Of a DNA stretch of 64,000 nucleotides, positions 688-64,000 are shown piece after piece. How positions within the stretch are numbered: position 1 is the first letter of the stretch; each line of letters opens with the position of its first letter. The notes under the pieces are model-generated. The model was not told where the DNA came from. It did no database searches and saw only the letters and a list, made by a program, of their open reading frames with translations. Source of the stretch: a virus. The stretch lies in IMG/VR virus record IMGVR_UViG_3300023174_000064, positions 1-64,000 of that record. The stretch is one strand, 5' to 3'. The translations under genes were made by a program, and so were the position numbers.

Positions 688-693
688 ACCCTC

Positions 694-40365: not shown

Positions 40366-40370
40366 AATAG

Positions 40371-40378
40371 TATTTATC
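40371..40378 (-). promoter_or_regulatory. Late-type octamer GATAAATA, leaderless arrangement
   Basis: Minus strand, then CTATT (5 nt) and the ATG at 40365. One mismatch to TATAAATA. Confidence 0.5.
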
Positions 40379-40385
40379 GATCCTT

Positions 40386-48075: not shown

Positions 48076-48327
48076 TTAAATAGGATTTGGTGAAATATCA
48101 CTTTCAATCTCTTCATCTTTTGGTTTGGTTGGTTGAACTGGTGGTACTAATGGTGGACCGAAATAATATTCTGGCTGTTGTGTTTGTAATAATGGAAAAT
48201 TTATTTGAGCAGATATAATTAAAGTTTTGTTTATATTTTTAATGTACATAAAGTACACATCATTTGCTAAAAATTGTTTCAGCAAAACTTTAATATTTTT
48301 TTCAGATTGTTTGACCTTCAGCTTCAT
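48076..48327 (-). CDS. Small hypothetical protein, 83 aa
   Basis: An 83-residue protein with SD AGGA. The N-terminal half is basic with a helix and a strand (KNIKVLLKQFLANDVYFMYI), and the C-terminal third is Pro-rich and acidic (QPTKPKDEEIESDISPNPI). It is adjacent to the giant virion protein (6 nt between the genes), so a role as its partner or attachment adaptor is possible. No family recognised. Confidence 0.55.
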   Translation of the reverse strand: MKLKVKQSEKNIKVLLKQFLANDVYFMYIKNINKTLIISAQINFPLLQTQQPEYYFGPPLVPPVQPTKPKDEEIESDISPNPI

Positions 48328-48761: not shown

Positions 48762-50006
48762 TTATCTGCTGACAGTTTTTCTTTCTTTAAACTTGGATTT
48801 AACAGCGTGTGCTGGAAAAAGAGCAGGTTTATGATCTTTTCTTTCGCTTTGCTTTTTGGCTTGTTCGTCCATCTGCCTAATAATTTCCATTTGATTAGTG
48901 TCTTCAAAGAACTTTAAGTACTGATTTAAATTGTTTTGTACCCGATCGATATCATTCTCTGGAAGACGATTTTCCATCAAAAGTTTCTTACAAGCAGCAT
49001 AACCCATATGGGCCTTTCCTGCGTAAAAAGCAGTCGAACCAATTTCGTCTAAAATTCCATATTTATAAACGTCCTCAGACACGAATAGGATATCTTCGGC
49101 TGGATATGGGATATCCATAGCCATCTTGGCGTATAAGAAACCTAGACGGGGATGACCCATCAGTCTGTAAATTTTAGCGATTTGGTGTAAAGGTTCAGCA
49201 CGAATTGGTCTGAGTTCCCAGGCTTCTAAAAATGCTTGTTGAATTTCTATCCATGGTTTATTTAAGAGACCACGGCACATACCAATACGATATGCTGCGT
49301 AATATTGTTCCTCTTCCCAACCACCCATCATTATTCGTTTTACGTAAGCTTGTTCTGCTTTTTCCCATTGTTGAGAATCAAAATAACTTTGAGCAAGATA
49401 GAACTGATAACGAATGTTATCTGGCTCGTCTACCAGAGCCTTTTCTAGCATTTCTGCGTCTCTTTTGTATTTTTCTACAGGTTCGATACCTACGTTACGG
49501 GCTCCCATTGTTCTAGCAACAATTCCGTATTGACCTTCAATTTTTGCAATTTTTGGTTGTTGGTTTTCAGTTGTTGGATATTCGTGAAGAATACCAACAT
49601 ACTTCCATCCGCGACCTGTTCGGAAGATTTGAGTTCTCCACCACGAGAAATCTTGACGACGGAACTGTAAAGCAAATGCGTCAAGTTCTTCTGAAATATT
49701 TGTTGGAAATTTAAATGTACCTTGAATAAAATCGTCAGCGTCAATCATCCACGCCCAATCAGCTTTACCATCACATAACTTTAAAGCTTCTGATCGATTA
49801 TGACCGAACGAAACCCACGGTTGTTCGTGTAGCTCTCCTGGAATACCCTTCTCTGCAAAATAAGACCGAATAAGATCTTGAGTGCCATCTGTTGATCCAG
49901 TATCAACAATTACCCAATAATCAATATACTTATGGACAGAATCCAGACACTCTTTAATAATGTGAGTTTCATTCTTTACGATCATTGACAGACATAATTT
50001 AGGCAT
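48762..50006 (-). CDS. Family 2 glycosyltransferase with C-terminal TPR-like helices
   Basis: A 414-residue protein. Residues 1-110 are a GT-A (family 2) domain: L-S-M-I-V-K-N-E, then V-D-T-G-S-T-D-G-T (near residue 36) and the D-A-D-D motif (M-I-D-A-D-D-F) for metal and nucleotide-sugar binding. Residues about 180-360 look like TPR or related helix repeats (DNIRYQFYLAQSYFDSQQWE). Such GT2-TPR proteins are known in phages and bacteria. Its likely role is to add a sugar in the glycan pathway that follows. A good SD (GGAG) precedes the ATG. Its composition is less AT-rich than the genes to the right. Confidence 0.8.
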   Translation of the reverse strand: MPKLCLSMIVKNETHIIKECLDSVHKYIDYWVIVDTGSTDGTQDLIRSYFAEKGIPGELHEQPWVSFGHNRSEALKLCDGKADWAWMIDADDFIQGTFKFPTNISEELDAFALQFRRQDFSWWRTQIFRTGRGWKYVGILHEYPTTENQQPKIAKIEGQYGIVARTMGARNVGIEPVEKYKRDAEMLEKALVDEPDNIRYQFYLAQSYFDSQQWEKAEQAYVKRIMMGGWEEEQYYAAYRIGMCRGLLNKPWIEIQQAFLEAWELRPIRAEPLHQIAKIYRLMGHPRLGFLYAKMAMDIPYPAEDILFVSEDVYKYGILDEIGSTAFYAGKAHMGYAACKKLLMENRLPENDIDRVQNNLNQYLKFFEDTNQMEIIRQMDEQAKKQSERKDHKPALFPAHAVKSKFKERKTVSR

Positions 50007-50023
50007 AGTATAAATCTCCGTAC

Positions 50024-50959
50024 TTATTTATGTGCGCTTTGTAACCAATCTTTAAGTTGTACCTTACAATTCCATCCAAAATGTTGTTTTATCTTGCTGA
50101 TATCTGCCAAAGTTATTCTGGATTCTCCAATTCTTGGAGGAATGTTGATTCTGCTTCCACCAATCATATCAGCTATTTCATTCACTGAATGGTTAACTCC
50201 AGAACCTACATTATAAATTTGACCCCATTTCCAAATATTATATTCTATTTCATTGGTTATTAAATATTTTGGAGCTTGAAATTCTGCAGCAAGAATATTT
50301 GCTTGAACCACATCACTAACGTGAGTGAAATCTCTTCTTTGATTGCCATCACCAACAATAGTCATGGGTTCTCCTGCACTATTTTGTCTTAAAAAGATAC
50401 CAATAACAGGAGCGTATTGACCCTTCAATGGTTGTCGTTCACCGTAAACATTGAAATATCTAAAAATTACTGTTTCTAAACCAAATAAAGAAGAATACAT
50501 TTTACAAAATTCTTCTCCTCCGACTTTAGATACAGAGTATGGATTTAAACAATCATTAGACATGGTTTCTTTTAAAGGAGGAATATTCTTTAAACCATAC
50601 GCAGAAGAAGTAGAAGAGTACATGACCCTTTTTACACCAGCTTCTCTGGCGCACTGCAGCATTGTGCAAGTACCAACAACATTTGTTTTAGCTGCTTTAA
50701 TAGGATTTAAAATTGCTGGTTGAATTCTTGCTTCTGCAGCAAGGTGAAATACGTAATCTATCCCATCATATAATGGTCTAGTGGATTCGTAATCACATAC
50801 GTCTAATATATGATTATTTGTATCAGATCTCCAGTAAAAATGATCATGTACATCTGAAGATTCGTTATCAATTACGGTTACTTCGTAACCTTTTTTTACT
50901 AGCCCATCAACTAAATTTGATCCTATAAATCCAGCTCCACCAGTTACTAATGCTTTCAT
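50024..50959 (-). CDS. NAD-dependent sugar-nucleotide epimerase/dehydratase (GalE-like)
   Basis: A 311-residue short-chain dehydrogenase of the extended type. The Rossmann motif is G7-G-A-G-F-I-G13, and the catalytic pair is Y141-S-V-S-K145 with an upstream S-S-T-S-S. Residues 1-311 cover the whole family length. It interconverts UDP-sugars (4-epimerase type) or removes water from them; the precise substrate cannot be read. Together with the next gene (a UDP-galactopyranose mutase) it suggests UDP-galactose, then UDP-galactofuranose. Its start overlaps the stop of glf by 1 nt (TAATG). Confidence 0.85.
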   Translation of the reverse strand: MKALVTGGAGFIGSNLVDGLVKKGYEVTVIDNESSDVHDHFYWRSDTNNHILDVCDYESTRPLYDGIDYVFHLAAEARIQPAILNPIKAAKTNVVGTCTMLQCAREAGVKRVMYSSTSSAYGLKNIPPLKETMSNDCLNPYSVSKVGGEEFCKMYSSLFGLETVIFRYFNVYGERQPLKGQYAPVIGIFLRQNSAGEPMTIVGDGNQRRDFTHVSDVVQANILAAEFQAPKYLITNEIEYNIWKWGQIYNVGSGVNHSVNEIADMIGGSRINIPPRIGESRITLADISKIKQHFGWNCKVQLKDWLQSAHK

Positions 50960-52053
50960 TATATTAATTCCTTTTCAACTCTTGCTAAAGCAGATCCAAC
51001 CACTTGATGCATGTCGTAATATTTATAATCTGCTAATCGACCTCCCATAATATATTTGGCAGAATTTACTCTATCCTTATATGATTTATATAATTTATTA
51101 TTTTTTTCATCATTAATTGGATAAAATTTTTCTTTTCCTGGTGTCCATTGTTCTGGATATTCTTTTGTTATTATTGTTTTATTTTGTTTACCAAATATAA
51201 AATGCTTGTGCTCTATAATTCTTGTGTATGGTACTGTTTCTTGTGTGTGATTAATTGCAGCGTTTCCTTGATAATCTGGAATATCGTGTTGTTCGTGTTC
51301 AAACTTTAAACTTCTCCATTCTAAATGTCCTAAATCACAATTAAAAAATTCATCTATAGGACCAGTATAAACAATCTTTCTTGCTGTATTATCAAAGTGT
51401 TGCTTATTAGCAAGATAATCTGTATTTAAACGAACCTCTATTCCATCTAATAATTTTTCAAAAATTGCAGTATAACCGTCTTTTGGTATACCTTGATAAC
51501 AGTCTTCAAAATAATTATCATCCATTGTCAGGCGGATAGGCAATCGTTTTATTATTGATGCTGGTAAATCTTTTGGTTCTTTACCCCATTGTTTTTTGGT
51601 GTAACCGTATATAAATTTTTTGTATATCTCTTCACCTACTTGAGATAATATCCATTCTTCTAAATTTTTTGGATTATCATTTTTAATTTTTACTTGTTCC
51701 AGCTTTTGTTTTGCTTCTTCTGGAGTTTTTACTTCCCATAATTGGTATAAAGTAAAAAGATTTATTGGAAAAGAATATAAATTATCGTTGTCTACTTTTG
51801 GTCTATAAACAAAATGGTTAAATTCTGTCCAACGATTCATGTAATCCCACACACGCTTATTGCTGGTGTGAAAGATATGAGGACCGTATTCGTGTATGTC
51901 TATACCTTCTATCTTTTTAGTATAACAATTTCCACCTATATGATTTCTTTTGTCTATAACCAGACATTTAAAACCAACATCAGTCAGTTCTCTGGCAAAT
52001 ATTGCTCCAAATAATCCAGAACCAACTATGATATAATCATGATATTCTTTCAT
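50959..52053 (-). CDS. glf: UDP-galactopyranose mutase
   Basis: A 364-residue flavoenzyme that makes UDP-galactofuranose from UDP-galactopyranose. The N-terminal FAD motif is G11-S-G-L-F-G-A, and family features include I-G-G-N-C, H-E-Y-G-P-H-I-F-H-T and G-Y-T-K-K-Q-W. Length is that of bacterial Glf (about 370). Galactofuranose is absent from animals but common in bacterial surface glycans; phage copies are rare. It supports the idea that this cluster builds a galactofuranose-containing glycan. Confidence 0.92.
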   Translation of the reverse strand: MKEYHDYIIVGSGLFGAIFARELTDVGFKCLVIDKRNHIGGNCYTKKIEGIDIHEYGPHIFHTSNKRVWDYMNRWTEFNHFVYRPKVDNDNLYSFPINLFTLYQLWEVKTPEEAKQKLEQVKIKNDNPKNLEEWILSQVGEEIYKKFIYGYTKKQWGKEPKDLPASIIKRLPIRLTMDDNYFEDCYQGIPKDGYTAIFEKLLDGIEVRLNTDYLANKQHFDNTARKIVYTGPIDEFFNCDLGHLEWRSLKFEHEQHDIPDYQGNAAINHTQETVPYTRIIEHKHFIFGKQNKTIITKEYPEQWTPGKEKFYPINDEKNNKLYKSYKDRVNSAKYIMGGRLADYKYYDMHQVVGSALARVEKELI

Positions 52054-52104
52054 TAAATTTCTTTTATTAAACTAGTAATTTTTTAAATTTACTCATAACT
52101 ATAA

Positions 52105-53013
52105 TCATATTAAAAATCCACGTTCTATTAATTTTTTATTATTTAATTGAATTAATTTATCAAATTTACTGTTTGGCATTACTTTTTTATTTTTATTTGC
52201 ACTATTATGCCAATGCCAAGCAAAACAATCTAAAAACATATATTTGTCTGGGCAATCAATTTCAAACCACAATGCATCCCGTTGTTGACTCAATGGTTCA
52301 TCGATTATACTAATTAACCATTCTATATTAAAAAAAGAACCAGGTAAAATTGTATACTTGTATTTTTGATATACCCTAGCAAACATATCCTTTCCCCATA
52401 TAGTTGAACCACCACGAATAGGCATATTTGGTATTTCTTTAATTAGATACTGTGAAAATTCACTATTTTTCTTCAAAGAAAGAACTGTAGCACAAGCACC
52501 TTCAATTTCATAATCTACTGCCGAACCCCATTGATACATGTATTCTTGATCTAATAATGGTTTAAAATCTTTCAATAAAATAACATCCATATCAATCCAA
52601 ATCCCTCCATACTTATGGAGAGCAAGAATACGCAATAAATCACTTTGAAGATAGTGTAAATTGTCTTTGGCTAAAAGACGATCTAATTGACCTTCTAACA
52701 CTGTCCCTTTTGCTTCTTCTATTGGATCGTATATTTTAAATATAATTTGATCTTTGAATGGGGCCAGACATTCTAAATTTTCAATAGAATAATCCGACCA
52801 AAGTATTAAGTTTGTTTTTTGTAAATTTTGTGTAGCAAAATATGATTTGATGCACTCTAATTCTTTTTCTGTCTTTAATTCGCTATAAACATGAAAGTTT
52901 ACCTTTTCTTCGGGATAATCATAATCACTTTGATTTATATTTTTTAAATATTCATAACAATCTAGATAATTACGATATAAATTATAATGAGTTTCTTTTG
53001 AAATATTAATCAT
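52105..53013 (-). CDS. DXD-motif glycosyltransferase (GT32-like)
   Basis: A 302-residue protein with the sugar-transferase core S-D-L-L-R-I-L-A-L-H-K-Y-G-G-I-W-I-D-M-D-V, in which D-x-D binds metal and nucleotide sugar, as in the Gly_transf_sug (GT32/GT44-type) family. It probably transfers a hexose to a growing glycan. The gap of 50 nt to glf is non-coding. It overlaps the next gene by 4 nt (ATGA). Very AT-rich, like the rest of the cluster. Confidence 0.8.
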   Translation of the reverse strand: MINISKETHYNLYRNYLDCYEYLKNINQSDYDYPEEKVNFHVYSELKTEKELECIKSYFATQNLQKTNLILWSDYSIENLECLAPFKDQIIFKIYDPIEEAKGTVLEGQLDRLLAKDNLHYLQSDLLRILALHKYGGIWIDMDVILLKDFKPLLDQEYMYQWGSAVDYEIEGACATVLSLKKNSEFSQYLIKEIPNMPIRGGSTIWGKDMFARVYQKYKYTILPGSFFNIEWLISIIDEPLSQQRDALWFEIDCPDKYMFLDCFAWHWHNSANKNKKVMPNSKFDKLIQLNNKKLIERGFLI

Positions 53014-53852
53014 ATATTTTCCATTATTTGTATAATACTATTATCTTCTTCATCGTATATTAAATTAATAGATTCTGCTTGAGGAAAATCTCTAAAATGA
53101 AATATTCTAATTTTATTCTTATCAGCTGCCATCAAAGTATCGTCTGGTCTATTAATTTTATCAGATAGAAGTTTTACGTTTTCTTTGTGGTAATCTTCTG
53201 TTGTTCTAATATCACCAGAATGAACGCTCGTTCCTATACTGTCACATCTATTGGCTAATACACAGATTTTTGTTCTTCCCTTAAATTCTCCAGTTTTATT
53301 AAATCTAGTATTTTCCGACCATCTTTGATTGCTTTGCAGATAAACTGGAACATTTTTTATAAACTTTTTTGATGGTGGTGGTTTCATATCAAACGAGGGA
53401 ATTAAAAATCTATCATATTTTTTAAAATTAATATCTGATAATACTTGTTTTATATAGTCGTCATCACAAGGAACTAAATATTCATCAACATCTAAAAAAA
53501 ATACTATATGAATATCGTCTTCGGATTCAATTGTTTGTTTTGTATTCCATTCGTTTTTAATAAAATGTAAACCATTATTATAACTTCTGCATATTCTTTG
53601 ATATAGATCTTCATTGCATGCGTAATCATTTCCGCTATTATAATAAATGTTAGTTACCTGAGTTTTATCAGAACATATTAATGATACACTAGTATCAGTG
53701 GATATAATATCATTTACTATTTTTTTAGTATTGTCTATAGACAAATCATCATAAATTAAAATTCTGTCTATGCCTATTTTTTTATGATATTTAATCCAAT
53801 CCAGAATACGATGTTCTTCGTTATAAATTTGTGCTATCAAACAGGTTTTCAT
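53010..53852 (-). CDS. Glycosyltransferase (GT92/Glyco_tranf_2_4-like)
   Basis: A 280-residue GT-A protein: N-E-E-H-R-I-L-D-W-I near the start, then I-D-R-I-L-I-Y-D-D-L-S-I-D-N-T and F-F-L-D-V-D-E-Y-L-V, the D-x-D motif, and a later H-x-G-x-x-S region, typical of families that handle cell-surface polysaccharides. It has ATGA overlaps on both sides, so it is translated within a coupled unit. The sugar is not predictable. Confidence 0.75.
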   Translation of the reverse strand: MKTCLIAQIYNEEHRILDWIKYHKKIGIDRILIYDDLSIDNTKKIVNDIISTDTSVSLICSDKTQVTNIYYNSGNDYACNEDLYQRICRSYNNGLHFIKNEWNTKQTIESEDDIHIVFFLDVDEYLVPCDDDYIKQVLSDINFKKYDRFLIPSFDMKPPPSKKFIKNVPVYLQSNQRWSENTRFNKTGEFKGRTKICVLANRCDSIGTSVHSGDIRTTEDYHKENVKLLSDKINRPDDTLMAADKNKIRIFHFRDFPQAESINLIYDEEDNSIIQIMENI

Positions 53853-54394
53853 TTTTTATAAATCCAACATCCTTCTTGTGAAGTGATATTATCAAGTAAT
53901 TCATGAACAGCTTTATTAACTCCAGTCCAACCATAATCATGACCTGCTAAATAACCATTTTTCTTTATTTTTGGTAACCAACATTTTATATCTTCAAGCA
54001 CACATTCATACGAATGACAAGCATCAATAAAAACTACGTCTAAAGATTCGTCTTCAAATTGTTTACTTGCTTCTGTTGAATCCATTCTTAATGGAGTGAC
54101 TGCTGTTATAACCGGTTTTATATTTTCCATGAAAACATCATATAAAGTATTGGTTTTGATATAATGATCGTTTTTATGTTCTTCTGAACCTAACCAAGTA
54201 TCAACTGCATAAAATTTAATATTTTTTGCAGAATTTATAATTTCTACAGCAAGATATGCTGTACTTTTTCCTTTCCAACAACCAACTTCAACAATAGTTG
54301 AATCATTAGGTAAAGAAGAAACAAAAAAAGAATATAATTGTGGGTATTCAAACCAATTTTCACCAAAATTTAAATTTTTATAAATGTGTTCCAT
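53849..54394 (-). CDS. SAM-dependent methyltransferase (Methyltransf_24-like)
   Basis: A 181-residue class I methyltransferase. Motif I is I-V-E-V-G-C-W-K-G-K-S (about 34-44), followed by F-Y-A-V-D-T-W-L-G and V-V-F-I-D-A-C-H-S-Y, then Y-L-A-G-H-D-Y. It fits the family often found in polysaccharide and natural-product clusters and probably methylates a sugar or an amino sugar. Good SD AAGGA. Confidence 0.8.
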   Translation of the reverse strand: MEHIYKNLNFGENWFEYPQLYSFFVSSLPNDSTIVEVGCWKGKSTAYLAVEIINSAKNIKFYAVDTWLGSEEHKNDHYIKTNTLYDVFMENIKPVITAVTPLRMDSTEASKQFEDESLDVVFIDACHSYECVLEDIKCWLPKIKKNGYLAGHDYGWTGVNKAVHELLDNITSQEGCWIYKK

Positions 54395-54406
54395 ATTTTT
54401 CCTTAA

Positions 54407-55063
54407 TTAAATTTTCTTATTAATAAAAAGAGCATCACCGGCCAAATATGGGGTATATGGTTTATCTGTAGGATCTTCGTAATATTCTGCCATTTCAAAA
54501 CCAAATTCTCGTAAAACGGAAGATATATCTTGAAGTGTCGGACTACCAGGACGCCAATTTTTATCTATAACAACTTCAGTTATTATGTATTTTGTATTAT
54601 TTAATATTTTTTGATTCTTGAATGCTTCGTATTCTGCTCCTTCAATATCAGAGCAAATTAAATCTATTGTTTTAATATTTCTAATATCACATTCATAATC
54701 TAGTGTAGTGGTTTCTATTTGTTGCTTTATAGTTGGTAAATATTTGTGTTTGTAGATTGAAGAACTTCCTAATATTTCTGGACTATTTGAATCTATAGAC
54801 CAATAATCAACATGACCTCTGCTCGAATATAATGCTTTAGGAACAAATTCAATTTTTGTATTGTTTTTAAGTTTATTAATTTTTTCCTGACAAATAGATA
54901 TTAGCTGTGGATTACATTCAAAAGATATAAATGTATTTGGTTCATAATAAGAAATAATAGGTTCTATAAAAGAAGCATCATTAGTACCCAATTCAAAAAT
55001 AGTATTTATTTTTTCTTTTGAAATGTGTTTTGTAAATTGTTCAAATAAATATGGTATGTTCAC
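54407..55063 (-). CDS. FkbM-family methyltransferase
   Basis: A 218-residue methyltransferase. F-E-L-G-T-N-D-A is the SAM motif, F-I-S-F-E-C-N-P the next strand and the signature L-I-C-S-D-I-E-G-A-E-Y-E-A is diagnostic for the FkbM family. These enzymes methylate sugar hydroxyls in surface glycans. The start is GTG 55063 with AAAGGA some 10 nt upstream. Confidence 0.85.
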   Translation of the reverse strand: MNIPYLFEQFTKHISKEKINTIFELGTNDASFIEPIISYYEPNTFISFECNPQLISICQEKINKLKNNTKIEFVPKALYSSRGHVDYWSIDSNSPEILGSSSIYKHKYLPTIKQQIETTTLDYECDIRNIKTIDLICSDIEGAEYEAFKNQKILNNTKYIITEVVIDKNWRPGSPTLQDISSVLREFGFEMAEYYEDPTDKPYTPYLAGDALFINKKI

Positions 55064-55076
55064 TTAAATTGATCCT

Positions 55077-55544
55077 TTATTGATTTTTAATTTTTGATAT
55101 AATATCACTGGTAGAAAAATTTTTTATTTTAGGAAAAAAAATTAACTCTTTTGTGAATTCTTTTCCTATTATGTTTTTGTTTTTATATTCTTCGCCTATT
55201 ACCATTTTTGATGGATTTAAATCCGATATAATATTTGCCAATTCTTCATCAGTGTCGTATACAAAAACTCCATCTACATATTTTAGAGAAAGAAGCATAG
55301 AAATTCTAGAAATTTCATCATTGATTGGTCTATCTTTTCCTTTGTTAGTTTTTACTCTAAAATCTGAATCTAAACCAACAAATACTAAACAATTTTGTAA
55401 ACTGTTACTATATTCTCTACACTTAGATAATAATTCTAAATGTCCTAAATGTAGGACATCATAACAACCATTAGTCCATACAACATCGGTATAATGTGGT
55501 AAAGGACTCCAATCGCCAGCTTGTCCATAATAATTAATGCTCAT
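55077..55544 (-). CDS. Cytidylyltransferase-like nucleotidyltransferase (RfaE/TagD-like)
   Basis: A 155-residue protein with T-N-G-C-Y-D-V-L-H32-L-G-H35, the HxGH motif of the nucleotidyltransferase superfamily, plus the later R-I-S-M-L-L-S-L-K-Y and S-T-S-D-I-I-S-K-I tail. It resembles the C-terminal domain of RfaE/HldE, which makes ADP-heptose, and TagD-type enzymes, which make CDP-glycerol. Its expected role is to activate a sugar or polyol for the cluster. The substrate cannot be told. No SD. Confidence 0.8.
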   Translation of the reverse strand: MSINYYGQAGDWSPLPHYTDVVWTNGCYDVLHLGHLELLSKCREYSNSLQNCLVFVGLDSDFRVKTNKGKDRPINDEISRISMLLSLKYVDGVFVYDTDEELANIISDLNPSKMVIGEEYKNKNIIGKEFTKELIFFPKIKNFSTSDIISKIKNQ

Positions 55545-55553
55545 GATATACTT

Positions 55554-56390
55554 TTATATATTATTTATTTGAGTTTTCCACCACGATATTTTTAATTTAT
55601 TAAAATTAAATTTTGTAGTTTGCATTTCTTCATATTTCTTATATAAAAACTCTTCAGTTATTTCTGACCATTGTTCAATAAAAACAATAGGAAGATCTTT
55701 AAAAAATCTATATGCTGGTTCGTATCGTACGATTGGAATCGTTTTAGAATACAAAGCTTCCCACAATCTATGTGTATCAACTCCATTACCACGAGGACAA
55801 AGAATAAATTTATGTTGTACCATATCATGCAAAAAAGATGATATATTAGTTTTATCATTATTATCGGAACAAATATTAAACCAAGTTTCGCCTTTTTTCT
55901 TTTTATCTAAAAATGCATGAAATAATGGTTGCCTTTCTGGTGGATGTGTTTCTTGTCTAAAATTAACATACAATAAATTATTTCTTTTATTATTTGTGTT
56001 TATTTTTTTAATATCATTTATTTTTGTGGTTATATTACAATACGAATTAGCTATTCCTAATGGGATAGGTATTATATCAGGATGTTCGTAAGTACTATTA
56101 ATTGCATACCAATTTGAAACATTTGATGGTTTGTATTTTACAATATCAGCGTTTATTGCAATATCAGAATTATGTGTTATAACATTTATATTTGTATATT
56201 GTTTATTATTATTTAAAATATAAAATAATTCATTTAAAGCGTATTCAGTTTTTGAAAATATTGTTATATTTGATTTTAAATTTAAATTTATACTTTGATC
56301 AAATGCTGTTGGTTTGTAATAATAATCACAAATAGATTTAAACGTCTCTCCCGAAACAAAATCATCTAATATATCATTTTTAAAATTCAT
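55554..56390 (-). CDS. Exostosin-like glycosyltransferase
   Basis: A 278-residue protein. The C-terminal half has K-F-I-L-C-P-R-G-N-G-V-D-T-H-R-L-W-E-A-L and T-I-P-I-V, a pattern of exostosin-type (GT47-like) GT-B enzymes also seen in the paralogous protein at 59339. The N-terminal half lacks a clear motif. It probably adds a sugar in the surface glycan. Very low GC. Confidence 0.7.
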   Translation of the reverse strand: MNFKNDILDDFVSGETFKSICDYYYKPTAFDQSINLNLKSNITIFSKTEYALNELFYILNNNKQYTNINVITHNSDIAINADIVKYKPSNVSNWYAINSTYEHPDIIPIPLGIANSYCNITTKINDIKKINTNNKRNNLLYVNFRQETHPPERQPLFHAFLDKKKKGETWFNICSDNNDKTNISSFLHDMVQHKFILCPRGNGVDTHRLWEALYSKTIPIVRYEPAYRFFKDLPIVFIEQWSEITEEFLYKKYEEMQTTKFNFNKLKISWWKTQINNI

Positions 56391-56400
56391 ATAATTTGTT

Positions 56401-57072
56401 TTAATATAAAATTAATTTCCAGCTATTCTTTAATTTAAAAATTCCATTAGCTTTTCTAATATTATGAAATATACCAGATTTTACATTTAAAGATTGGGCT
56501 AAATGTATAAAAGAGCTGTCTATACAATGTACTTCTTGTGCTTCTTCAATTAGGCCACACCAATCTAATAAACAATCAGTTAATGGTGTAACAAATATTT
56601 TTTTAATATTATTATCAATCTTTAAATTAAATTTACAATCAGATCCTTCATTATGAATAAGAATAAAAGGTTCATTTTTTAAACCTAATTTATTTTTAAT
56701 TGTGTTTTCTCTTTTTACATTTCTATTTATTTTAAAATATTTCCATCTAATATCAAATGGTATTCCATTAGTTTCATAGAAAGAAACATCCCAATCATCT
56801 CTTGTTTTATGAAACCCAATAGAAATTATTTTATTACATTGTTTAATTTCTGGTAAACTATAAACGTCTTGATCATTGTTGACTTCTAGAGGCACTATTT
56901 TTGACTCATCATCATACATTTTTTTTACTGTAAAAATATTATTTTTTTTTGTTGGTAGATATAAAATATCTGGTTTTATTTGTTCGTTTATAAATCGAAC
57001 GAGGCCATTGCAAATTAAATGATCCCCTAAACCTAAATGATGATGGAGTAAAATGATATTTTTATTGTCCAT
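56401..57072 (-). CDS. GT9/heptosyltransferase-like glycosyltransferase
   Basis: A 223-residue protein. The N-terminus (HHHLGLGDHLICNGLVRFI) resembles the Gly-rich start of heptosyltransferase-like GT-B proteins, and the C-terminal L-I-E-E-A-Q-E-V-H-C-I-D-S-S-F-I-H-L-A resembles the nucleotide-binding half. It is shorter than typical family 9 members (about 330). Role in glycan assembly inferred. It overlaps the next gene by 11 nt. Confidence 0.6.
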   Translation of the reverse strand: MDNKNIILLHHHLGLGDHLICNGLVRFINEQIKPDILYLPTKKNNIFTVKKMYDDESKIVPLEVNNDQDVYSLPEIKQCNKIISIGFHKTRDDWDVSFYETNGIPFDIRWKYFKINRNVKRENTIKNKLGLKNEPFILIHNEGSDCKFNLKIDNNIKKIFVTPLTDCLLDWCGLIEEAQEVHCIDSSFIHLAQSLNVKSGIFHNIRKANGIFKLKNSWKLILY

Positions 57073-57793
57073 ACCATTTATTATTAAATAATTTTATAGA
57101 GTTTATTTGATCTTTTGGTATGCTAAGATGTGCCAATAAATCGTTTCTCACAAATATCATGTTACCGGTATGACACACGCAGCTATATCCTTTATTGATT
57201 CCTACTTTTAAAGAATCCATAAAACTATAACCTTTAGATTTATTATCTTGTTCTGCTGGAGCTAAACCACTATTAATCTCTATTATTACAATTTTAGGGG
57301 ACAGTTTATGTTCTTCCCAAATTTCATGATCATAAGAATCTATGTCTATATTTAAAATATCATAATTTGATGAAAATTGTTTAACTTGAGCTAAGGATTC
57401 GTCTAATGTTTTTATTTCTGCATTAAAATAAAATATATCACAATTTTCATGCATCGCTTTACAACCAGCATAACCTGCATCAACTTTAGCTTTATCTGAT
57501 ATTGCAGTAAAATGATTTAAAGCTATTACATTTGGATATACTTGTGGTAGATCTTGTAGTGATAGGTATTTTGGTTCACATGCCCCACCAACTAAGGAAG
57601 GCTCAATCATAACAGCATGACATCCTTGATTAATAAGATGCCGTACGTTACTGTATGCGATACCATCGTATGCACCAACATCTACAACCCACATATCAGG
57701 AATATTTAATCCTAATTCCTTGATTAGTTGTTCTAAGATTCCGTCTTCACCATTTTGACTGTATTTATTTTTTATAAAAGTATAATAATGCAT
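57062..57793 (-). CDS. FkbM-like methyltransferase
   Basis: A 243-residue protein. The start K-Y-S-Q-N-G-E-D-G-I-L is shared by a group of FkbM-like proteins with V-V-D-V-G-A-Y-D-G as the SAM motif. The segment L-N-I-D-I-D-S-Y-D-H-E-I-W and V-I-I-E-I-N follow. It would methylate a sugar. The start is set at ATG 57793, which overlaps the previous stop (TAATG); an upstream GTG at 57805 is less likely. Confidence 0.75.
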   Translation of the reverse strand: MHYYTFIKNKYSQNGEDGILEQLIKELGLNIPDMWVVDVGAYDGIAYSNVRHLINQGCHAVMIEPSLVGGACEPKYLSLQDLPQVYPNVIALNHFTAISDKAKVDAGYAGCKAMHENCDIFYFNAEIKTLDESLAQVKQFSSNYDILNIDIDSYDHEIWEEHKLSPKIVIIEINSGLAPAEQDNKSKGYSFMDSLKVGINKGYSCVCHTGNMIFVRNDLLAHLSIPKDQINSIKLFNNKWYGQ

Positions 57794-58509
57794 TATATTA
57801 TCCACATATTTTCTGATTTAAACCACTCTATTTTTTGTTGAGTTCCTACACAAAAATTAGCATGAATTATTGTTTGTCCTAATCTTTCTTTTGGTCCATT
57901 ATTTGAAAAATATAAATGTCCATTTGTTGCAAATGTAGTTTCAAGTGTATTTAATTTTATATCACCTCTTGCTAAAATATGATTTAAAATTGCTTGATCA
58001 TGCCATTCACCAGAATCTGTTTTTATCTGTGCTAAATTATTTGCTATTTGTATAGCTTCTTGAAATAGTTGTTTTATTGTATTATTGTTTTTTAATAACA
58101 TTACTCCAGCACACCACCTTGATCCAACCGGTCTATCAGTTTGGCATATCATATCATGAGTATCGTTTTCAATTTGTTTTAATTTTTCTGTTGGGTCTTT
58201 TGCAAAAAATACATCAGAATCAATAAAAAATATATTTTCATTTATTTCATTTAAAGTGTCTAATATGCACTTCAATTTAATAAACATTATTAATTTAAAT
58301 TCTTGTGTTCCATAATCCCAATAATTTGATTTAAATTTATAAGACGTTTTTACAGTTACATTTTTTATATTTTTTTCTATAAAAAAATTTTCACTTTCAT
58401 CATCAAGACAAAACATAATCATTTCTTCGTCTGTAAATTTTCGAAGAGATAATATCATGTTGTATGACAATTCTAAAGAACCATTATTTGTAAAGGATAC
58501 ATATTTCAT
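57793..58509 (-). CDS. Nucleotide-diphospho-sugar transferase (GT77-like)
   Basis: A 238-residue protein beginning MKYVSFTNNGSLELSYNMIL. It contains the metal-binding F-F-I-D-S-D-V-F-F and a late W-H-D-Q-A-I-L-N-H-I segment, both typical of the nucleotide-diphospho-sugar transferase family. It transfers a sugar to the glycan. ATG 58509 is chosen over the in-frame GTG at 58521, which would overlap the previous gene. Confidence 0.7.
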   Translation of the reverse strand: MKYVSFTNNGSLELSYNMILSLRKFTDEEMIMFCLDDESENFFIEKNIKNVTVKTSYKFKSNYWDYGTQEFKLIMFIKLKCILDTLNEINENIFFIDSDVFFAKDPTEKLKQIENDTHDMICQTDRPVGSRWCAGVMLLKNNNTIKQLFQEAIQIANNLAQIKTDSGEWHDQAILNHILARGDIKLNTLETTFATNGHLYFSNNGPKERLGQTIIHANFCVGTQQKIEWFKSENMWII

Positions 58510-58511
58510 AA

Positions 58512-59342
58512 TTAAGAACACTCGTTGAATATATTTATATACTTTTGTTTATCTATTTCAGTGATATATCTTTGTTTTCCAATATATTCATTATCATGAA
58601 ATATACCACAAGACGAACAACAATTTAAATGACAATGACCTTTACCATTCTCACCAAACCAGTGTGGATATTTTATTGGATCATTTTCTATACCACTATG
58701 CCATTCTGGAAATTTAATATTCCACCAACCTTGTCCTCTTAATCGTGGAATAGGAAATGGGTGTTTTATTTCATTTCTGTACATGTTGCCAAACCAATCA
58801 TCATGAACATAAGCTTTATCAATTATTCTTGGATAAATTTCTGATCGTAAAAATTTTTGATCTATTCCGTGATTATTATCGATTTCTTTTCTGGGATATT
58901 CTTGTATTAGATCCATCATTTCCGTTATTACGCCATTTCTGCATCCCCATGCGCCACCACAAATAGGCCAACCGTGTTGACAACAATCTCTTAGAATGTG
59001 AAAATCTTTATCACTATTTAACCATTCGTCTACTGCTGCTTTGTCGCGTATTGATAATCTAGAATCTGTATCTCTAGAAATCATAACATCCACGCTTGGA
59101 TCTGATGCTGGATAAAATCTCCAAAACATACCATTCCAGCTAACATCTTCATCCATCATAAACACTTCTGTATTTTTTCTGCCAGTTAATTCTTTTATTG
59201 CTATTTTTGGAACTGTTGGTGCAACATAATAACGACAAGTCCACCCTTCCCATTCTTTTTCTGCTATATCGGCATTTAAAATACCACCCATAATATAAAA
59301 TGGATTTTTACCCCACATAGAAAATGATATTACTTTTTTCAT
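58512..59342 (-). CDS. Phage glycosyltransferase-like protein (paralogue of 60178 gene)
   Basis: A 276-residue protein starting MKKVISFSMWG. It contains I-S-R-D-T-D-S-R-L-S, then D-E-W-L-N-S, F-H-I-L-R-D and G-G-A-W-G-C-R, exactly the pattern in the gene at 60178. The DTDSR segment is a D-x-D motif of GT-A type. Its C-terminus carries extra Cys and His residues (HCHLNCCSSCGIFH), a likely metal site. The ATG overlaps the previous stop (ATGA). Role in the glycan cluster inferred. Confidence 0.65.
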   Translation of the reverse strand: MKKVISFSMWGKNPFYIMGGILNADIAEKEWEGWTCRYYVAPTVPKIAIKELTGRKNTEVFMMDEDVSWNGMFWRFYPASDPSVDVMISRDTDSRLSIRDKAAVDEWLNSDKDFHILRDCCQHGWPICGGAWGCRNGVITEMMDLIQEYPRKEIDNNHGIDQKFLRSEIYPRIIDKAYVHDDWFGNMYRNEIKHPFPIPRLRGQGWWNIKFPEWHSGIENDPIKYPHWFGENGKGHCHLNCCSSCGIFHDNEYIGKQRYITEIDKQKYINIFNECS

Positions 59343-60181
59343 TGATTTACTCTTTTTAAAATTTGATGACATACTGCATCTAATGTAAAATATTCAGGAT
59401 AAACTTGTTTTATCCGGTTTAACATGTTGTTGTGCTTTTCGTCTGAAATAGACTGTAATATGTTTTTTAAATTGCATATTTGGTTTTGTTTTATTATTAC
59501 ACAAAATTCAGACCAATCCAATTCATCAGACCAAGGAAGGTAGTGATCGTCACTTACATATACAGGAACTGCTCCTATTTGCATTGTTTCATATAATCTA
59601 AAACTACTTTTACCGTATCCTCTGGGGCATAATACAAATTTACTTCTGTTTGTTACATCTATAAAATGGTTTAGTTTATCTTCCGATACTGTTATATCCC
59701 AACCACCTTGTGTGAATAAAAAATCACTGTCTTGTTTGAACGTATTATATAATTCGTTTCGTATTCCATGCGTGGCAGAACCAACAAAAGAACAAAATAT
59801 GTCTTTTGTTTTTGGTTCTGGAACACGAATAGCAGAGCATATTAATGGAATAGGAATACAATTTGGTCCAGAATAATTTCCACCAGCAGAAAATACTTTG
59901 GTGTTTGGTGGTAATTTTTGAGCTGGAGCATCATCGTGTTGACTAACAGTATAGTAAGACAATTCAGGATTTAATGAATTTAAAAATGCTTGTAAGATAT
60001 TCCAAGGCATTCCGTTATTATAATAAGAAGTCCATAAAACTGGAATAAAAAATTTCTTAGTGTTTGGTTGATTTTTTATCAAAAACTCCATAAAATAATC
60101 TTCCAAATATAATCCTTGATGGTAAGGAGGATATGTTGGATAATTTGGTTTAGGTGCAAAAAAATCCAAAGTTATGTTCAT
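59339..60181 (-). CDS. Exostosin-like glycosyltransferase, second copy type
   Basis: A 280-residue GT-B-like protein: S-K-F-V-L-C-P-R-G-Y-G-K-S-S-F-R-L-Y-E-T is the same pattern as in 55554, then G-A-V-P-V-Y-V-S-D-D and a C-terminal helix. It begins MNITLDFFAPKPNYPTYPPY. ATG 60181 is chosen because it overlaps the previous stop (ATGA). The sugar is unknown. Confidence 0.75.
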   Translation of the reverse strand: MNITLDFFAPKPNYPTYPPYHQGLYLEDYFMEFLIKNQPNTKKFFIPVLWTSYYNNGMPWNILQAFLNSLNPELSYYTVSQHDDAPAQKLPPNTKVFSAGGNYSGPNCIPIPLICSAIRVPEPKTKDIFCSFVGSATHGIRNELYNTFKQDSDFLFTQGGWDITVSEDKLNHFIDVTNRSKFVLCPRGYGKSSFRLYETMQIGAVPVYVSDDHYLPWSDELDWSEFCVIIKQNQICNLKNILQSISDEKHNNMLNRIKQVYPEYFTLDAVCHQILKRVNQ

Positions 60182-60876
60182 GAACAAGTTCCTTTTTTAA
60201 ATTGTTCTCTATGATATGGATTTAATTGATAATCATTTCCGTTTTCATCAATACCAAAAGGTTCACCTATAAAATAATTATGTGGATCTTGTTCTCTTGA
60301 CATAGAAATAGGATGACCGCCAAGACGAGTACAGGTATCATGTATGTACACGTTTGTTTCTGGATTTAATAATGGACAAACATAAGACCATAAAAATTGT
60401 TGATCTACATTCTTGATATCGTTAAATATTGGTGTGGTTTCATAATGTTTTATCATTTCATTTATTGGTAATTTTACATTTTTAGCTCCCCAAGCTCCAC
60501 CCAACATAGGAACATCGTGACAGGGATGATCTCGTATTATATGAAACGATCTATTACTATTCAACCATTCATTTACGGCATATACTTCTCTTGGTCCGAT
60601 TCTAGAATCTGTATCTCTTGATAAAAATATGTTAATATCTTCTTGTAGTGGTAAGAATCTATAAGTCATTATATGTGAAGATCCTGGTCTATCTAAAACA
60701 ACAACTTCAGAATGTTTTTTTAATAAATTAATTTTTGATTCGTTAAAATCATTAGAAACATAAAATCTACAAATAAATCCTGGATAATAACGAGCAACCA
60801 GATCTATATTTTTCAATGCACCTTTAAAATAAAGATCATTTTCTCCCCAAAGACAATAACTTACAATATTTTTCAT
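60178..60876 (-). CDS. Phage glycosyltransferase-like protein (paralogue of 58512 gene)
   Basis: A 232-residue protein, MKNIVSYCLWGENDLYFKGA at its start, then F-L-S-R-D-T-D-S-R-I, E-W-L-N-S, F-H-I-I-R-D and G-G-A-W-G. It matches the 58512 protein over 150 residues and lacks that protein's extra Cys/His tail. Pair arose by duplication. It likely transfers a sugar using the D-x-D motif. Overlaps neighbours by 4 nt on both sides. Confidence 0.65.
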   Translation of the reverse strand: MKNIVSYCLWGENDLYFKGALKNIDLVARYYPGFICRFYVSNDFNESKINLLKKHSEVVVLDRPGSSHIMTYRFLPLQEDINIFLSRDTDSRIGPREVYAVNEWLNSNRSFHIIRDHPCHDVPMLGGAWGAKNVKLPINEMIKHYETTPIFNDIKNVDQQFLWSYVCPLLNPETNVYIHDTCTRLGGHPISMSREQDPHNYFIGEPFGIDENGNDYQLNPYHREQFKKGTCS

Positions 60877-62372
60877 CGTTGTGTTTCGGTTATTTCTGGA
60901 TCGTAAAGATAATGATATAATATCTGTTCGATATTTGATTCTGTTTTAATTAATCCAGATTTAAACAATTTATCAGAATAATCACTATCTTCTGATAAAT
61001 TTATTTCTGGAAACATTATTTCTCTTGCCATACTAGTTTTTACTGGATTTAAATGATTTATAGGTCTGTATTGAATACCATCTTTTCTAAAATTACCACC
61101 ATTTTTATTGGCATGGCTGAATTGCATAACTAGTTGATTTTGAATATAATAATTACCATAAAATCCAACACAATCCACACCTTTTTCTAATTCTGGTAAA
61201 ATAGCAGTAAAATAATTATGACTAACCATATCATCATCGTCTATAAAGCAAACATATTTTCCTCTTGCTGTCATCAATACTTCATTTCTTTTTTCGCCTA
61301 CTTTTTTTTGTTTTTTATCTTTATTAACAAATATTTCTATTTTATGTGCTTGATCTGCAGGAATTATTTGTTTTAAATGATTTAAAAGTCTTGTTAAAAA
61401 ATGCTCTCTTCCTTCTATAGTAAGAATACCAACAGTCAATAATGTATCAGATACATTTATTTTTTGTTTGATTGTTTGTTCAACTCGTTTAGAAAAACTC
61501 TGTGCGTATTCTTTTGCCTTTTCAAAATTGTCCTCTATTTTAAATTTTAATTTTTTGTAAGTGGTTTCATCAATATTATTAACAATATGGACAAGCTCTT
61601 CTATTGAATTAAAAGTAAATAAACCACCAGTATCAAAATATTCTCCAATATTAGGACAACCAAAATATATTGGGATTGTTTTTGTGATTAAACAATCTAT
61701 TAATTTTTCAGAAAAATAATTTGGTTGAATACAGTTTTCCACAATAATAGAAAATTGTGAATAAAATAAATTATCCTTTTCTCCATTAGGAATATGACCA
61801 TCATGAAGAGTATCAGAGAATCCATTTACGTTAGTTGGAGATCTAGCACTAGACCAAAATACCGTAGGTTTATTTAAATTATTTTTATTGTTCCAGATGT
61901 CTCGACGCATCTCATAGCCAATCATACCACGATGTCCTGTAGCCATGAAGGATATTTGATATTTTTTATCTTTGTATTTTTCTTCTAAACCTTCTTCATA
62001 AACGCCTAAAGAATCTGGATGTTGTAATTCTATTTTATTTAACCAAGTACCACCGTAAAGAAATAAAGTAGAATTATCACAACTATTAAGTATTTCTTCA
62101 TCTGTACACATAATAAGATCATATTCGGATGCATGATCTATGATATCATTGATTCGTTCTTTATTTGGCGAACAAACAGGTTCGCTGGTTACAATTAAAA
62201 CTTTATATGCATTTAAATTTTTAAAAGGAACTTTATATCCTTGAGTGTTTGGAAAACGATATAAAGGAAATTTATTATTACCAAAACGAGCAGTATGTAT
62301 TTCTACTGGTCGATCAAAATCCATTAGATCCGAGCCTAACAGATAATCTGCATTAAAAATTGTTGGTTTCAT
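60873..62372 (-). CDS. GT10-like and GT2 fusion glycosyltransferase
   Basis: A 499-residue two-domain protein. The N-terminal domain has S-I-I-V-E-N-C-I-Q-P-N-Y-F-S-E-K-L (about residue 206) and T-I-P-I-Y-F-G-C-P-N-I, the C-terminal core of GT10 (alpha-1,3-fucosyltransferase-like) enzymes. The second domain, from about residue 311 (TVGILTIEGREHFLTRLL), is a family 2 GT-A with C-F-I-D-D-D-D-M (about residue 376). It could add two sugars in sequence. Overlaps the next gene by 20 nt. Confidence 0.75.
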   Translation of the reverse strand: MKPTIFNADYLLGSDLMDFDRPVEIHTARFGNNKFPLYRFPNTQGYKVPFKNLNAYKVLIVTSEPVCSPNKERINDIIDHASEYDLIMCTDEEILNSCDNSTLFLYGGTWLNKIELQHPDSLGVYEEGLEEKYKDKKYQISFMATGHRGMIGYEMRRDIWNNKNNLNKPTVFWSSARSPTNVNGFSDTLHDGHIPNGEKDNLFYSQFSIIVENCIQPNYFSEKLIDCLITKTIPIYFGCPNIGEYFDTGGLFTFNSIEELVHIVNNIDETTYKKLKFKIEDNFEKAKEYAQSFSKRVEQTIKQKINVSDTLLTVGILTIEGREHFLTRLLNHLKQIIPADQAHKIEIFVNKDKKQKKVGEKRNEVLMTARGKYVCFIDDDDMVSHNYFTAILPELEKGVDCVGFYGNYYIQNQLVMQFSHANKNGGNFRKDGIQYRPINHLNPVKTSMAREIMFPEINLSEDSDYSDKLFKSGLIKTESNIEQILYHYLYDPEITETQR

Positions 62373-63231
62373 TATTAATCATCTCAAAAAGATCATCGTC
62401 TGCTAATTTTAATTTATTAAGAGCTTTGTAATTGTGCTCTATCGCTTTGCTTTTATTTATGTAGGTTTCTTCGTTTAAAGAATCAAATATTTTTTTTTCT
62501 TTATCTAATTCTAACCAAATAATTCCTTCTGGATCAAAAATATCAGGAAGTTTTTTAGTTCCACAATATACAGGAATTGTTCCTGTAGCAAAACAGTCTG
62601 TTAATTTTTCTGTGTAATAAGAATCGTATATACCATTCTCAACAACTACACTAAACATATAATCCTTTAAACCATCAATTTTAGTGTTCCAAGGATTTCT
62701 AGGATCATTTACTGTTCTGCTGGTTCCATGAGCTCCTCCAAATACATCAAAACCACAATCTAATGCTATTCGAGCAATTTGATGCCGATATACGTGGCCT
62801 TCTGTTAGTTTTTTGGGAGAGCAAAACATAGAGCATTGTTTTTTCTTGGGATAAACACTCCATTTATCTTTTGGAATCCACGGATAATTGCTACCATTTT
62901 GGCAATAAACAAAATTTGGATGTAACTGTAGAAGAGCACTGTCACAAGTAAAAATTTTATTATAATAACTATTAAACAATACTTTATAATTGTTTATTAA
63001 AAAATCATAAACATTTGGAACTATAAATCTAGATTCGCATATCCAACCAAATCTTTTTTCTTTGGGTTTAGAAAAATCTGGATTTATTAACAGACCTAAA
63101 TCTAAATGAACATCACAAATACCTTCAGTGTTTGACCAATCGAACTTATTTGGTTTTATGTTTGAACAAGAAGAATATTGTGGTTCGAATGGTAAAGCAA
63201 TACCTTTTACTTTGTACCGGGACTCTGCCAT
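62353..63231 (-). CDS. GT10 fucosyltransferase-like protein
   Basis: A 292-residue protein with Y-M-F-S-V-V-V-E-N-G-I-Y-D-S-Y-Y-T-E-K-L, then T-D-C-F-A-T-G-T-I-P-V-Y-C-G, the GT10 donor-binding core, close to the first domain of the gene at 60873. The N-terminal part likely binds the acceptor. Donor may be GDP-fucose or a related sugar; not determinable. Overlaps neighbours. Confidence 0.75.
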   Translation of the reverse strand: MAESRYKVKGIALPFEPQYSSCSNIKPNKFDWSNTEGICDVHLDLGLLINPDFSKPKEKRFGWICESRFIVPNVYDFLINNYKVLFNSYYNKIFTCDSALLQLHPNFVYCQNGSNYPWIPKDKWSVYPKKKQCSMFCSPKKLTEGHVYRHQIARIALDCGFDVFGGAHGTSRTVNDPRNPWNTKIDGLKDYMFSVVVENGIYDSYYTEKLTDCFATGTIPVYCGTKKLPDIFDPEGIIWLELDKEKKIFDSLNEETYINKSKAIEHNYKALNKLKLADDDLFEMINNETNNF

Positions 63232-63845
63232 GCTATTAAATCCTCACTCATTCCTAATTTTTTAAGTGCTTCTTTTTTAGAATCTACGTCAGCCAATCCC
63301 ATTACTATTACACTAGCATCGTTTTCTTGACCGGGCCAAACACAATATTCTGGTCCTATAAATTTTATTTTAAATCCATCTTTTTGATAAAAAGAATGCA
63401 AAATGCCAATAAGAGCTTCATGATCAAACCATTGACCATTATTTGCCATTTGCCTTGCCATAAATGTCCAATGTTGAAGAAATTCTAATACTTTAGAATT
63501 AAAATCCAAATAAATTGGAGATGCTTTTGCTGCTTGTAATTTATTTGTTGAGCAAGACACAGCTACATCAGTATTACCTACAAACTGGTCAAATACATCT
63601 AATGATTTGCGAACATCAGAATCAATATCTAACCAAACAACTGGTTTTTGTTTTTCTATTAATAATTGGTATATGAACTGAGGCTTACTTAGACAATTTT
63701 TTTGATATGTTCCTAATGATTGTTTTTTTCTAATATCATGAGGAATATTCAATTCTCTTAGTTGTTTTGTAAGACGATGAGAATGGTCACTATAATACGT
63801 TTTATTGTCTATATCACTAAAAAAAGAAATCACTTCGGTTTGCAT
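63207..63845 (-). CDS. DXD glycosyltransferase-like protein
   Basis: A 212-residue protein with V-V-W-L-D-I-D-S-D-V (metal-binding D-x-D) and W-F-D-H-E-A-L-I-G-I-L, like the nucleotide-diphospho-sugar transferase pattern. Its overlap of 25 nt with the next gene shows coupling. Its precise donor is unknown. Confidence 0.65.
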   Translation of the reverse strand: MQTEVISFFSDIDNKTYYSDHSHRLTKQLRELNIPHDIRKKQSLGTYQKNCLSKPQFIYQLLIEKQKPVVWLDIDSDVRKSLDVFDQFVGNTDVAVSCSTNKLQAAKASPIYLDFNSKVLEFLQHWTFMARQMANNGQWFDHEALIGILHSFYQKDGFKIKFIGPEYCVWPGQENDASVIVMGLADVDSKKEALKKLGMSEDLIAWQSPGTK

Positions 63846-63847: not shown

Positions 63848-64000
63848 TTAAGAGTTTCCTATATGGTATTTAGGCACCAGTTGCCATTCTTTCTTTTCTT
63901 TATGGGGAATAATTTTTAGTTGAGCCAAAGAAATAATTGGTTCTTTGTACTCGTCTGGATCCACAGCTTCTACTAGTCCCCATTCTACCAGAAGCTTTAC
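63848..64000 (-). CDS. C-terminal fragment of an unrecognised protein
   Basis: The frame is open from the window edge to the stop at 63848-63850. Visible 50 residues include VKLLVEWGLVEAVDPDEY and end in VPKYHIGNS. The rest lies beyond the edge. Probably the next gene of the same minus-strand unit; nothing in the fragment points to a family. Confidence 0.55.
   Translation of the reverse strand, partial: VKLLVEWGLVEAVDPDEYKEPIISLAQLKIIPHKEKKEWQLVPKYHIGNS

Follow-up and report, generated by a model that had tools for sequence, protein, structure and literature searches.

What would a phage make with an island of sugar enzymes beside its tail genes, and to what would the product be attached? 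The question is raised by a virus record of 146,037 bases (IMG/VR IMGVR_UViG_3300023174_000064), whose bases 1-64000, hereafter the window, carry 18 same-strand open reading frames (ORFs) on the minus strand at 48762-63845. A sequence-only reading had described these as a phage-borne glycan cluster of about 18 genes with a supply of galactofuranose, and all of the ORFs were present at these coordinates. With the replication gene regA on one side and tail-fibre genes on the other, the island starts 2 nt after regA and stops 14 nt before the gene g135 and the fibre genes, which agrees with its reported position next to the tail genes. Its reported AT-richness was likewise borne out (GC content of 0.283 versus 0.388 in the adjoining gp44-regA block). 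Coupling of almost all genes by overlaps was an overstatement, in that 11 of the 17 ORF junctions overlap and the remaining six have gaps of 9-51 nt. The gene set of the record is that of a T4-like myophage (DNA polymerase gp43, ribonucleotide reductase [RNR], DnaB-type helicase, gp44, gp45, gp62 and regA, together with RNase H, SbcC, gp32, scaffold, portal gp20, terminase and baseplate genes), and since T4-type gp43, RNR, gp44, gp45, gp62, RNase H, gp20, scaffold and terminase genes stand on both sides, the island is phage-borne. The answer that we favour, and hold with moderate confidence, is that the island is a serotype-like locus for glycosylation of tail or fibre proteins of the phage itself.

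A constant frame around exchanged cassettes

Relatives of the island were gathered by UDP-galactopyranose mutase (Glf), by the terminal glycosyltransferase (GT) GT2tpr and by regA, and overlapping loci of one contig were merged. The comparison set consisted of the window and 15 further contigs, 2 of which end inside the cassette. Family calls were made with Pfam and NCBIfam models at their curated cut-offs and with profile searches of the Protein Data Bank (PDB). In the window, the upstream border and the three enzymes of the frame are as follows.

63848..64000 (to 64252 in the record), minus strand: regA, T4-type translational regulator and fixed upstream border (PF01818, 4.9e-41)
63207..63845, minus strand: u212, frame enzyme 1, putative GT-A glycosyltransferase, assigned by a DxD motif (WLDIDSD) only
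62353..63231, minus strand: frame enzyme 2, GT10-like, of the fucosyltransferase family (PF00852, 5e-6, weak)
48762..50006, minus strand: GT2tpr, frame enzyme 3, a GT2 domain plus tetratricopeptide repeat (TPR) helices, SunS/ThuS/GmaR-like

The profile of the frame GT10 matched the alpha-1,3-fucosyltransferases 2nzw and 5zoi at about 1e-9; u212 had no Pfam match, and its profile found nothing in the PDB.

The common gene order was gp45-gp44-gp62-regA, u212, GT10, cassette, GT2tpr, g135 and fibres. The frame proteins were conserved (identity to the window proteins of 61-87% for u212, 36-73% for GT10 and 76-83% for GT2tpr), and the cassette between the frame enzymes, 10-22 ORFs over 8-18 kb, was almost wholly different between contigs. 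Phages with gp44 proteins 97-100% identical usually had 0-3 cassette genes in common, whereas some pairs at 75-78% had most of them in common. Indeed, 18 of the 22 pairs with gp44 identity of at least 97% showed cassette sharing of 15% or less, and over 105 pairs cassette sharing was uncorrelated with gp44 identity (Spearman, -0.09; Mantel P value = 0.45). Contigs 042450_001745 and 027754_000045, for example, have gp44 proteins that are 100% identical and u212 proteins that are 97% identical, with zero cassette genes in common, while 042450_001745 and 005582_002751 have gp44 proteins only 78% identical yet hold 10 cassette genes in common, at 80-86% nucleotide identity versus 72% for the backbone. 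The window and 009180_002798 (gp44, 98% identical) also had zero cassette genes in common; their alignment ran at 93% up to gp62 and at 83% onward into GT10, was followed by about 12 kb of unrelated sequence and resumed at 87% shortly ahead of GT2tpr, continuing for 8.1 kb through a gene for a 2041-amino-acid (aa) fibre that is 87% identical. Alignment breakpoints fell mostly inside or just after GT10 and from a few to about 30 nt ahead of GT2tpr. With a sharing threshold of 50%, the 16 contigs fell into eight glycotypes, the window being alone in its own.

In all 16 contigs the cassette had a GC content of 24-33% versus 38-42% in the adjoining core and frame genes. The ratio of nonsynonymous to synonymous substitution rates (dN/dS) relative to the window was 0.08 for GT2tpr, 0.11 for u212 and 0.17 for GT10, approximate values because dS in the frame genes approaches or exceeds saturation, and the medians for shared cassette genes were 0.11-0.17. 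The island is thus a fixed frame in which cassettes are exchanged under purifying selection. Glf was found in only 1 of the 16 contigs, the window itself; in a more distant group of four loci (L009, L010, L014 and L016), Glf and the adjacent epimerase gene adjoin GT2tpr and the rest of the cassette is different. Galactofuranose therefore represents one glycotype among at least eight. The galactofuranose glycan of the sequence-only reading therefore retains its supply enzyme, but that enzyme, like nearly all of the transferases which that reading named, is part of an exchangeable cassette, and the constant feature is the frame. Other cassettes encode GDP-mannose dehydratase, dTDP-glucose dehydratase, GDP-fucose synthase-like enzymes, aminotransferases, GT11 and GT25.

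The conserved terminal enzyme and its baseplate- and fibre-like neighbours

GT2tpr was kept in every version of the locus, even in loci where it is the only enzyme following regA. These minimal loci have the order regA-GT2tpr-g135 without a cassette (L035, 10381-12080; L200-L204; L212), and it is possible that they represent the ancestral state. The best PDB matches of the GT2tpr family profile were GmaR (1e-14), SunS (5e-13) and ThuS (9e-11), with TPR scaffolds and TarS ranking below them. The AlphaFold model of GT2tpr had a pLDDT of 88, and its six top Foldseek matches were all ThuS or SunS, with E values down to 1e-15. In the broad features of this group GT2tpr conforms, having a GT2 domain with a DxD motif (an invariant DADD), C-terminal TPR-like helices and SunS, ThuS and GmaR as its nearest solved folds. 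The acceptor of GmaR is flagellin. GmaR has the same architecture, a transferase domain followed by TPRs (PMC3150276), and peptides are the substrates of SunS and its relatives (PMC6405829). Based on this kinship to protein glycosyltransferases, we propose that GT2tpr may be the initiating protein glycosyltransferase. The nearest isolate with a homologue is Tunturi_5 (37% identity), in which the gene lies no more than six genes from the tail fibres. In a search of bacterial genomes, GT2tpr found only two contigs of metagenome-assembled genomes (37-38% identity), which gave no host lead.

On the other side of GT2tpr stand g135, g83 and the fibre genes.

48340..48747, minus strand: g135, Ig-like beta-sandwich baseplate or fibre-adaptor protein, candidate acceptor or acceptor carrier
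48076..48327, minus strand: g83, small protein encoded between the adaptor and fibre genes, without a family match
41944..48069, minus strand: 2041-aa fibre-like protein with a TIG domain, the fibre compared above with that of 009180_002798
34316..38602, minus strand: 1428-aa collagen-like tail fibre, candidate acceptor (PHROG tail fibre and collagen-like matches)

A g135 or g135-like gene was next after GT2tpr in all 21 of the first loci and in 45 of 64 further loci. The structure of g135 was confidently predicted as an Ig-like sandwich (pLDDT, 91), and the fold nearest to it is that of a DT57C baseplate protein; lower matches included the baseplate proteins of 80alpha, Douge and NF5 among many immunoglobulin domains. 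In five loci (L200, L202, L203, L214 and L215), g135 forms the N-terminal domain of spike- or fibre-like proteins of 484-801 aa. Because of this baseplate fold match and these fusions, the modelled g135 is likely a virion attachment module. A tblastn search of g135 against 50,697 phage records gave no match, and its virion role hence rests on the fold and the domain fusions. In L202 and L203, the remainder of the fusion protein appears by eye to be GDSL/SGNH-esterase-like (L202:11230-13161). Beside the 2041-aa fibre, the window encodes two pectate-lyase-fold spike proteins (38656-41912), so the phage may also degrade host polysaccharide, and a trypsin-like serine protease gene (17306-18076; PF00089, 2e-12) lies beside a tail-fibre-like gene. 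A collagen-type hydroxylysine glycan linkage on the collagen-like fibre was considered and dropped, since the 2-oxoglutarate oxygenase PF13640 is absent.

Genome-wide, the T4-type late promoter core, ATAAATA, occurred 27 times in the 80 nt preceding genes, versus 2.2 expected, including sites near head genes. Within the island it was found 5-65 nt upstream of GT2tpr (18 nt), of the epimerase gene and of the ORFs at 55077-55544 and 57793-58521 (P value = 0.0007 versus shifted gene positions), and a CTAAATA motif precedes u212. These motifs suggest that the island is expressed late, together with the virion genes.

The mechanism that we propose is as follows. The fixed glycosyltransferase frame (63207-63845, 62353-63231 and 48762-50006) would enclose an exchangeable cassette of 10-22 genes providing nucleotide-sugar supply, sugar transfer and methylation. 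In the cytoplasm, late in infection, GT2tpr would place the first sugar on a phage tail or fibre protein, with the g135 adaptor, or the fibre that this adaptor carries, as the most likely acceptor. The conserved and cassette transferases would then lengthen the glycan and methyltransferases would cap it; in the window, the extension probably includes galactofuranose via the epimerase and Glf. Recombination in the conserved flanks would replace cassettes, such that near-identical phages would show different virion glycans, like O-antigens within one bacterial species. What we infer from the genes is the acceptor and linkage of the glycan, the order of its sugars, when it is made and how it helps the phage, most likely by shielding the virion surface or altering its recognition.

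Enzymes of the window's cassette and the genome around it

The 15 genes between the frame enzymes of the window are listed from regA toward GT2tpr.

60873..62372, minus strand: two-domain GT10-like plus GT2 transferase (PF00535, 2e-7, above cut-off; PF00852, E = 0.008, below)
60178..60876, minus strand: putative transferase, apparent paralogue of 58512-59372
59339..60187, minus strand: GT47/exostosin-like transferase (PF03016, 1e-20)
58512..59372, minus strand: putative transferase of a family shared with S-SRM01 and huge phages
57793..58521, minus strand: GT77-type nucleotide-diphospho-sugar transferase (PF03407, 2.5e-19)
57062..57805, minus strand: weakly FkbM-like methyltransferase (PF05050, 0.002, and TIGR01444, 5e-5, both below cut-off)
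56401..57072, minus strand: ORF without a family, GT-B/GT9-like by eye (a lead only), with homologues in other cassettes
55554..56390, minus strand: GT47/exostosin-like transferase (PF03016, 5e-10)
55077..55544, minus strand: cytidylyl-/adenylyltransferase-like protein (PF01467)
54407..55063, minus strand: FkbM methyltransferase (PF05050, 4e-11)
53849..54394, minus strand: Methyltransf_24 (PF13578, 1e-21)
53010..53852, minus strand: GT92-type transferase (PF01697, 4e-11)
52105..53013, minus strand: GT32-type transferase (PF04488, 2e-10)
50959..52053, minus strand: Glf (TIGR00031, 389.9 versus a cut-off of 303.75 bits)
50024..50959, minus strand: short-chain dehydrogenase/reductase (SDR) nucleotide-sugar epimerase, GalE/WbpP-like (PF01370)

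Most enzyme names of the sequence-only reading were upheld by these models, namely, the GT2, GT32-, GT92-, exostosin- and GT77-like transferases, Glf and the cytidylyltransferase-like nucleotidyltransferase, with the GT10-like call being weak. Two of its three methyltransferases stood and the third (57062-57805) fell below the Pfam cut-off; its GalE-like enzyme is an SDR epimerase that scored below the galE equivalog cut-off (TIGR01179, 143.9 versus 262.3 bits), with 4zrm, a UDP-glucose 4-epimerase, as the top PDB match. This epimerase is presumed to be the source of UDP-galactose for Glf. Glf itself aligned end to end with E. coli 1i8t (1i8t residues 2-361; E, 4e-131) and belongs to the mutase family, by which it would convert UDP-galactopyranose to UDP-galactofuranose. 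Pootjesviridae Glf (phiM9 and P10VF) was rejected as a counterpart, standing beside an amidase without a transferase cluster. The models nearest to 55077-55544, also in the PDB, were RfaE domain II and ethanolamine-phosphate or glycerol-3-phosphate cytidylyltransferases; an RfaE/heptose role was rejected (TIGR02199, 97.5 versus a cut-off of 181.5), with cytidylyltransferases being equally near. No Pfam family was found for 56401-57072, 58512-59372, 60178-60876 or 63207-63845, and 58512-59372 and 60178-60876 matched the same loci as queries.

The polymerase and portal of the record are about equidistant from known groups, with 47-52% identity to cyanophages and the portal likewise to Methylophilales phages. 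The photosystem gene family PF00124 is absent from the record, which thus shows no cyanophage sign, and a megablast search of the cluster against the 50,697 phage records gave no match. Blocks with a GC content of 52-59% occupy both ends of the record (window 1-4000; record 132000-145000) versus roughly 26-46% elsewhere; they carry small phage-type genes and a 774-aa PHROG_459 peptidase (676-3000) and, in a circularly permuted genome, could be a single block of 18 kb. A further Methyltransf_24 gene (record 64686-65246; L002:1686-2246) interrupts the pair of clamp-loader genes gp62 and gp44; 005662_003801 has a copy that is 91% identical, and the gene is absent from several phages with near-identical flanks.

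Alternative explanations and known systems

Several points weigh against glycosylation of the phage's own virion. The glycan, its acceptor and its linkage are all predicted from genes. GT2tpr scored well below the equivalog cut-off of the SunS model (TIGR04195; E, 1.3e-12; 47.3 versus 350 bits), is only 16-19% identical to its matches and superposes poorly over its full length (TM-score, 0.55; root mean square deviation, 13 Å), and the wall teichoic acid transferases TarS and TarP appear lower in its list of fold matches. In 19 of the 64 more distant loci, g135 was unrecognisable beside GT2tpr. Cassette and fibre reassort independently, so no single virion carrier is singled out; this independent variation suggests that the glycan is a surface coat and not a receptor-binding determinant. 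Moreover, soluble transferases could use lipid-linked precursors of the host, in which case membrane proteins would not be required.

That last point belongs to the best-surviving alternative, in which the enzymes would remodel precursors of the lipopolysaccharide O-chain or capsule in the cytoplasm, using the host flippase and polymerase or ABC exporter, and exclude other phages. This reading has been published for the GT-rich islands of related T4-like pelagimyophages (PMC7029224). Many of the cassette families (Epimerase, GDP-mannose dehydratase, GT2, GT11, GT25 and FkbM) are those usually seen in O-antigen loci, whose transferases are frequently soluble, as in the E. coli K-12 control, and a host-surface role would likewise fit serotype-like diversity. 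However, a hydrophobic-window filter found at least two transmembrane windows in 0 of 234 cassette ORFs (and, in a broader set, in 1 of the 665 genes lying upstream of GT2tpr), whereas in the control it found 9 windows in Wzx and 6 in Wzy of E. coli K-12. The cassettes held no flippase, polymerase, exporter or membrane initiating transferase, the components of a Wzx/Wzy locus, and no GtrA flippase, GtrB polyprenyl transferase or membrane GtrC, those of phage gtrABC seroconversion. The enzyme common to all versions resembles protein glycosyltransferases, adjoins a baseplate-type gene and is the only one of the enzymes retained in the minimal loci, and late-promoter motifs are late for exclusion. 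We therefore consider modification of the host surface unlikely.

Less probable still is that the island is host-derived metabolic cargo or a passive hot spot, its genes having been picked up recently from bacteria at a plastic T4 locus and lacking a unified function. Their low GC content and diverse gene families would fit, and hyperplastic regions are usual in T4-like phages, but the borders are fixed at gene resolution, the frame enzymes are conserved, the ORFs are intact and under purifying selection, whole cassettes are exchanged between phages, and many close Glf relatives (up to 74%) sit in other viral contigs. Masking of DNA by glycosylation of modified bases against restriction, established in T4 and repeatedly suggested for the transferases of aquatic phages (PMC10611076 and PMC10202952), is very improbable. 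The record, possibly incomplete, has no PF00303 (the dCMP hydroxymethylase/thymidylate synthase family), which T4-type glucosylation would need alongside an alpha- or beta-glucosyltransferase, and no PF13640, and it makes thymidylate by ThyX; moreover, 10-22 enzymes with sugar supply and methylation go far beyond the needs of base glycosylation. Of the three options in the sequence-only reading, virion (fibre) glycosylation is thus the best supported; a change of the host O-antigen is less probable, and masking of DNA has no support.

A wider proposition, to which we give an even chance, is that a widespread T4-like aquatic lineage has virion serotypes, in which a locus anchored by a protein glycosyltransferase swaps whole cassettes, so that nearly identical phages would bear different glycans on their tail fibres whichever fibre, and hence receptor specificity, they have. 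Such phages would diversify their own surface by a bacterial anti-phage trick, modular exchange of a glycan locus, and would do so independently of their receptor-binding fibres. This would offer a reason for the many glycosyltransferases that aquatic phages encode, at present mostly attributed to modification of the host O-antigen or of DNA, and would turn the glycotype of the virion into a character readable from the sequence. The locus family would also be a set of natural protein-glycosyltransferase and elongation cassettes.

Like bacterial O-antigen and capsule loci (such as rfb of E. coli K-12, where glf is present as well), the island has conserved flanks, a variable centre of sugar and transferase genes and low GC content; unlike them, it is phage-borne, lies beside fibres and is without flippase, polymerase, initiating membrane transferase and exporter. 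GT2tpr shares with GmaR, SunS and ThuS the succession of a GT2 domain and TPR-like helices, but the island differs from their systems in having no bacteriocin precursor or exporter and in having a multi-gene elongation cassette. To our knowledge, no exchangeable multi-gene cassette occurs in mycobacteriophage virion glycosylation. In Che8 and related mycobacteriophages, phage-encoded transferases attach glycans covalently to virion proteins (Freeman et al. 2023, cited in PMC11256854); as far as that secondary account goes, fewer enzymes, a capsid target and unrelated phages are involved. The freshwater T4-like Synechococcus phage S-SRM01 carries transferase and GDP-fucose genes in one large block (PMC8557907) that differs from the island in gene set and location, and no GT2tpr homologue was found in it. 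There is also a close likeness to the "host recognition cluster" of pelagimyophages, a hypervariable island between VrlC and gp14 that was read as modifying the host O-chain (PMC7029224): there, too, a T4-like aquatic phage carries a hypervariable block with fibres and several glycosyltransferases within a syntenic core. The island studied here lies instead between regA and the fibres and is bordered by fixed enzymes, one of them protein-glycosyltransferase-like, and its cassette is exchanged as a whole. In view of those published islands, the earlier description of the cluster as an undescribed system was too strong; GT-rich hypervariable islands, large sugar clusters and virion glycosylation are already known in phages. 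A literature search on tail fiber glycosylation and flagellin transferases gave no match, and within the literature searched, what is new is the combination of a fixed enzymatic frame, gene-precise cassette exchange and an anchor of protein-glycosyltransferase type beside a baseplate domain.

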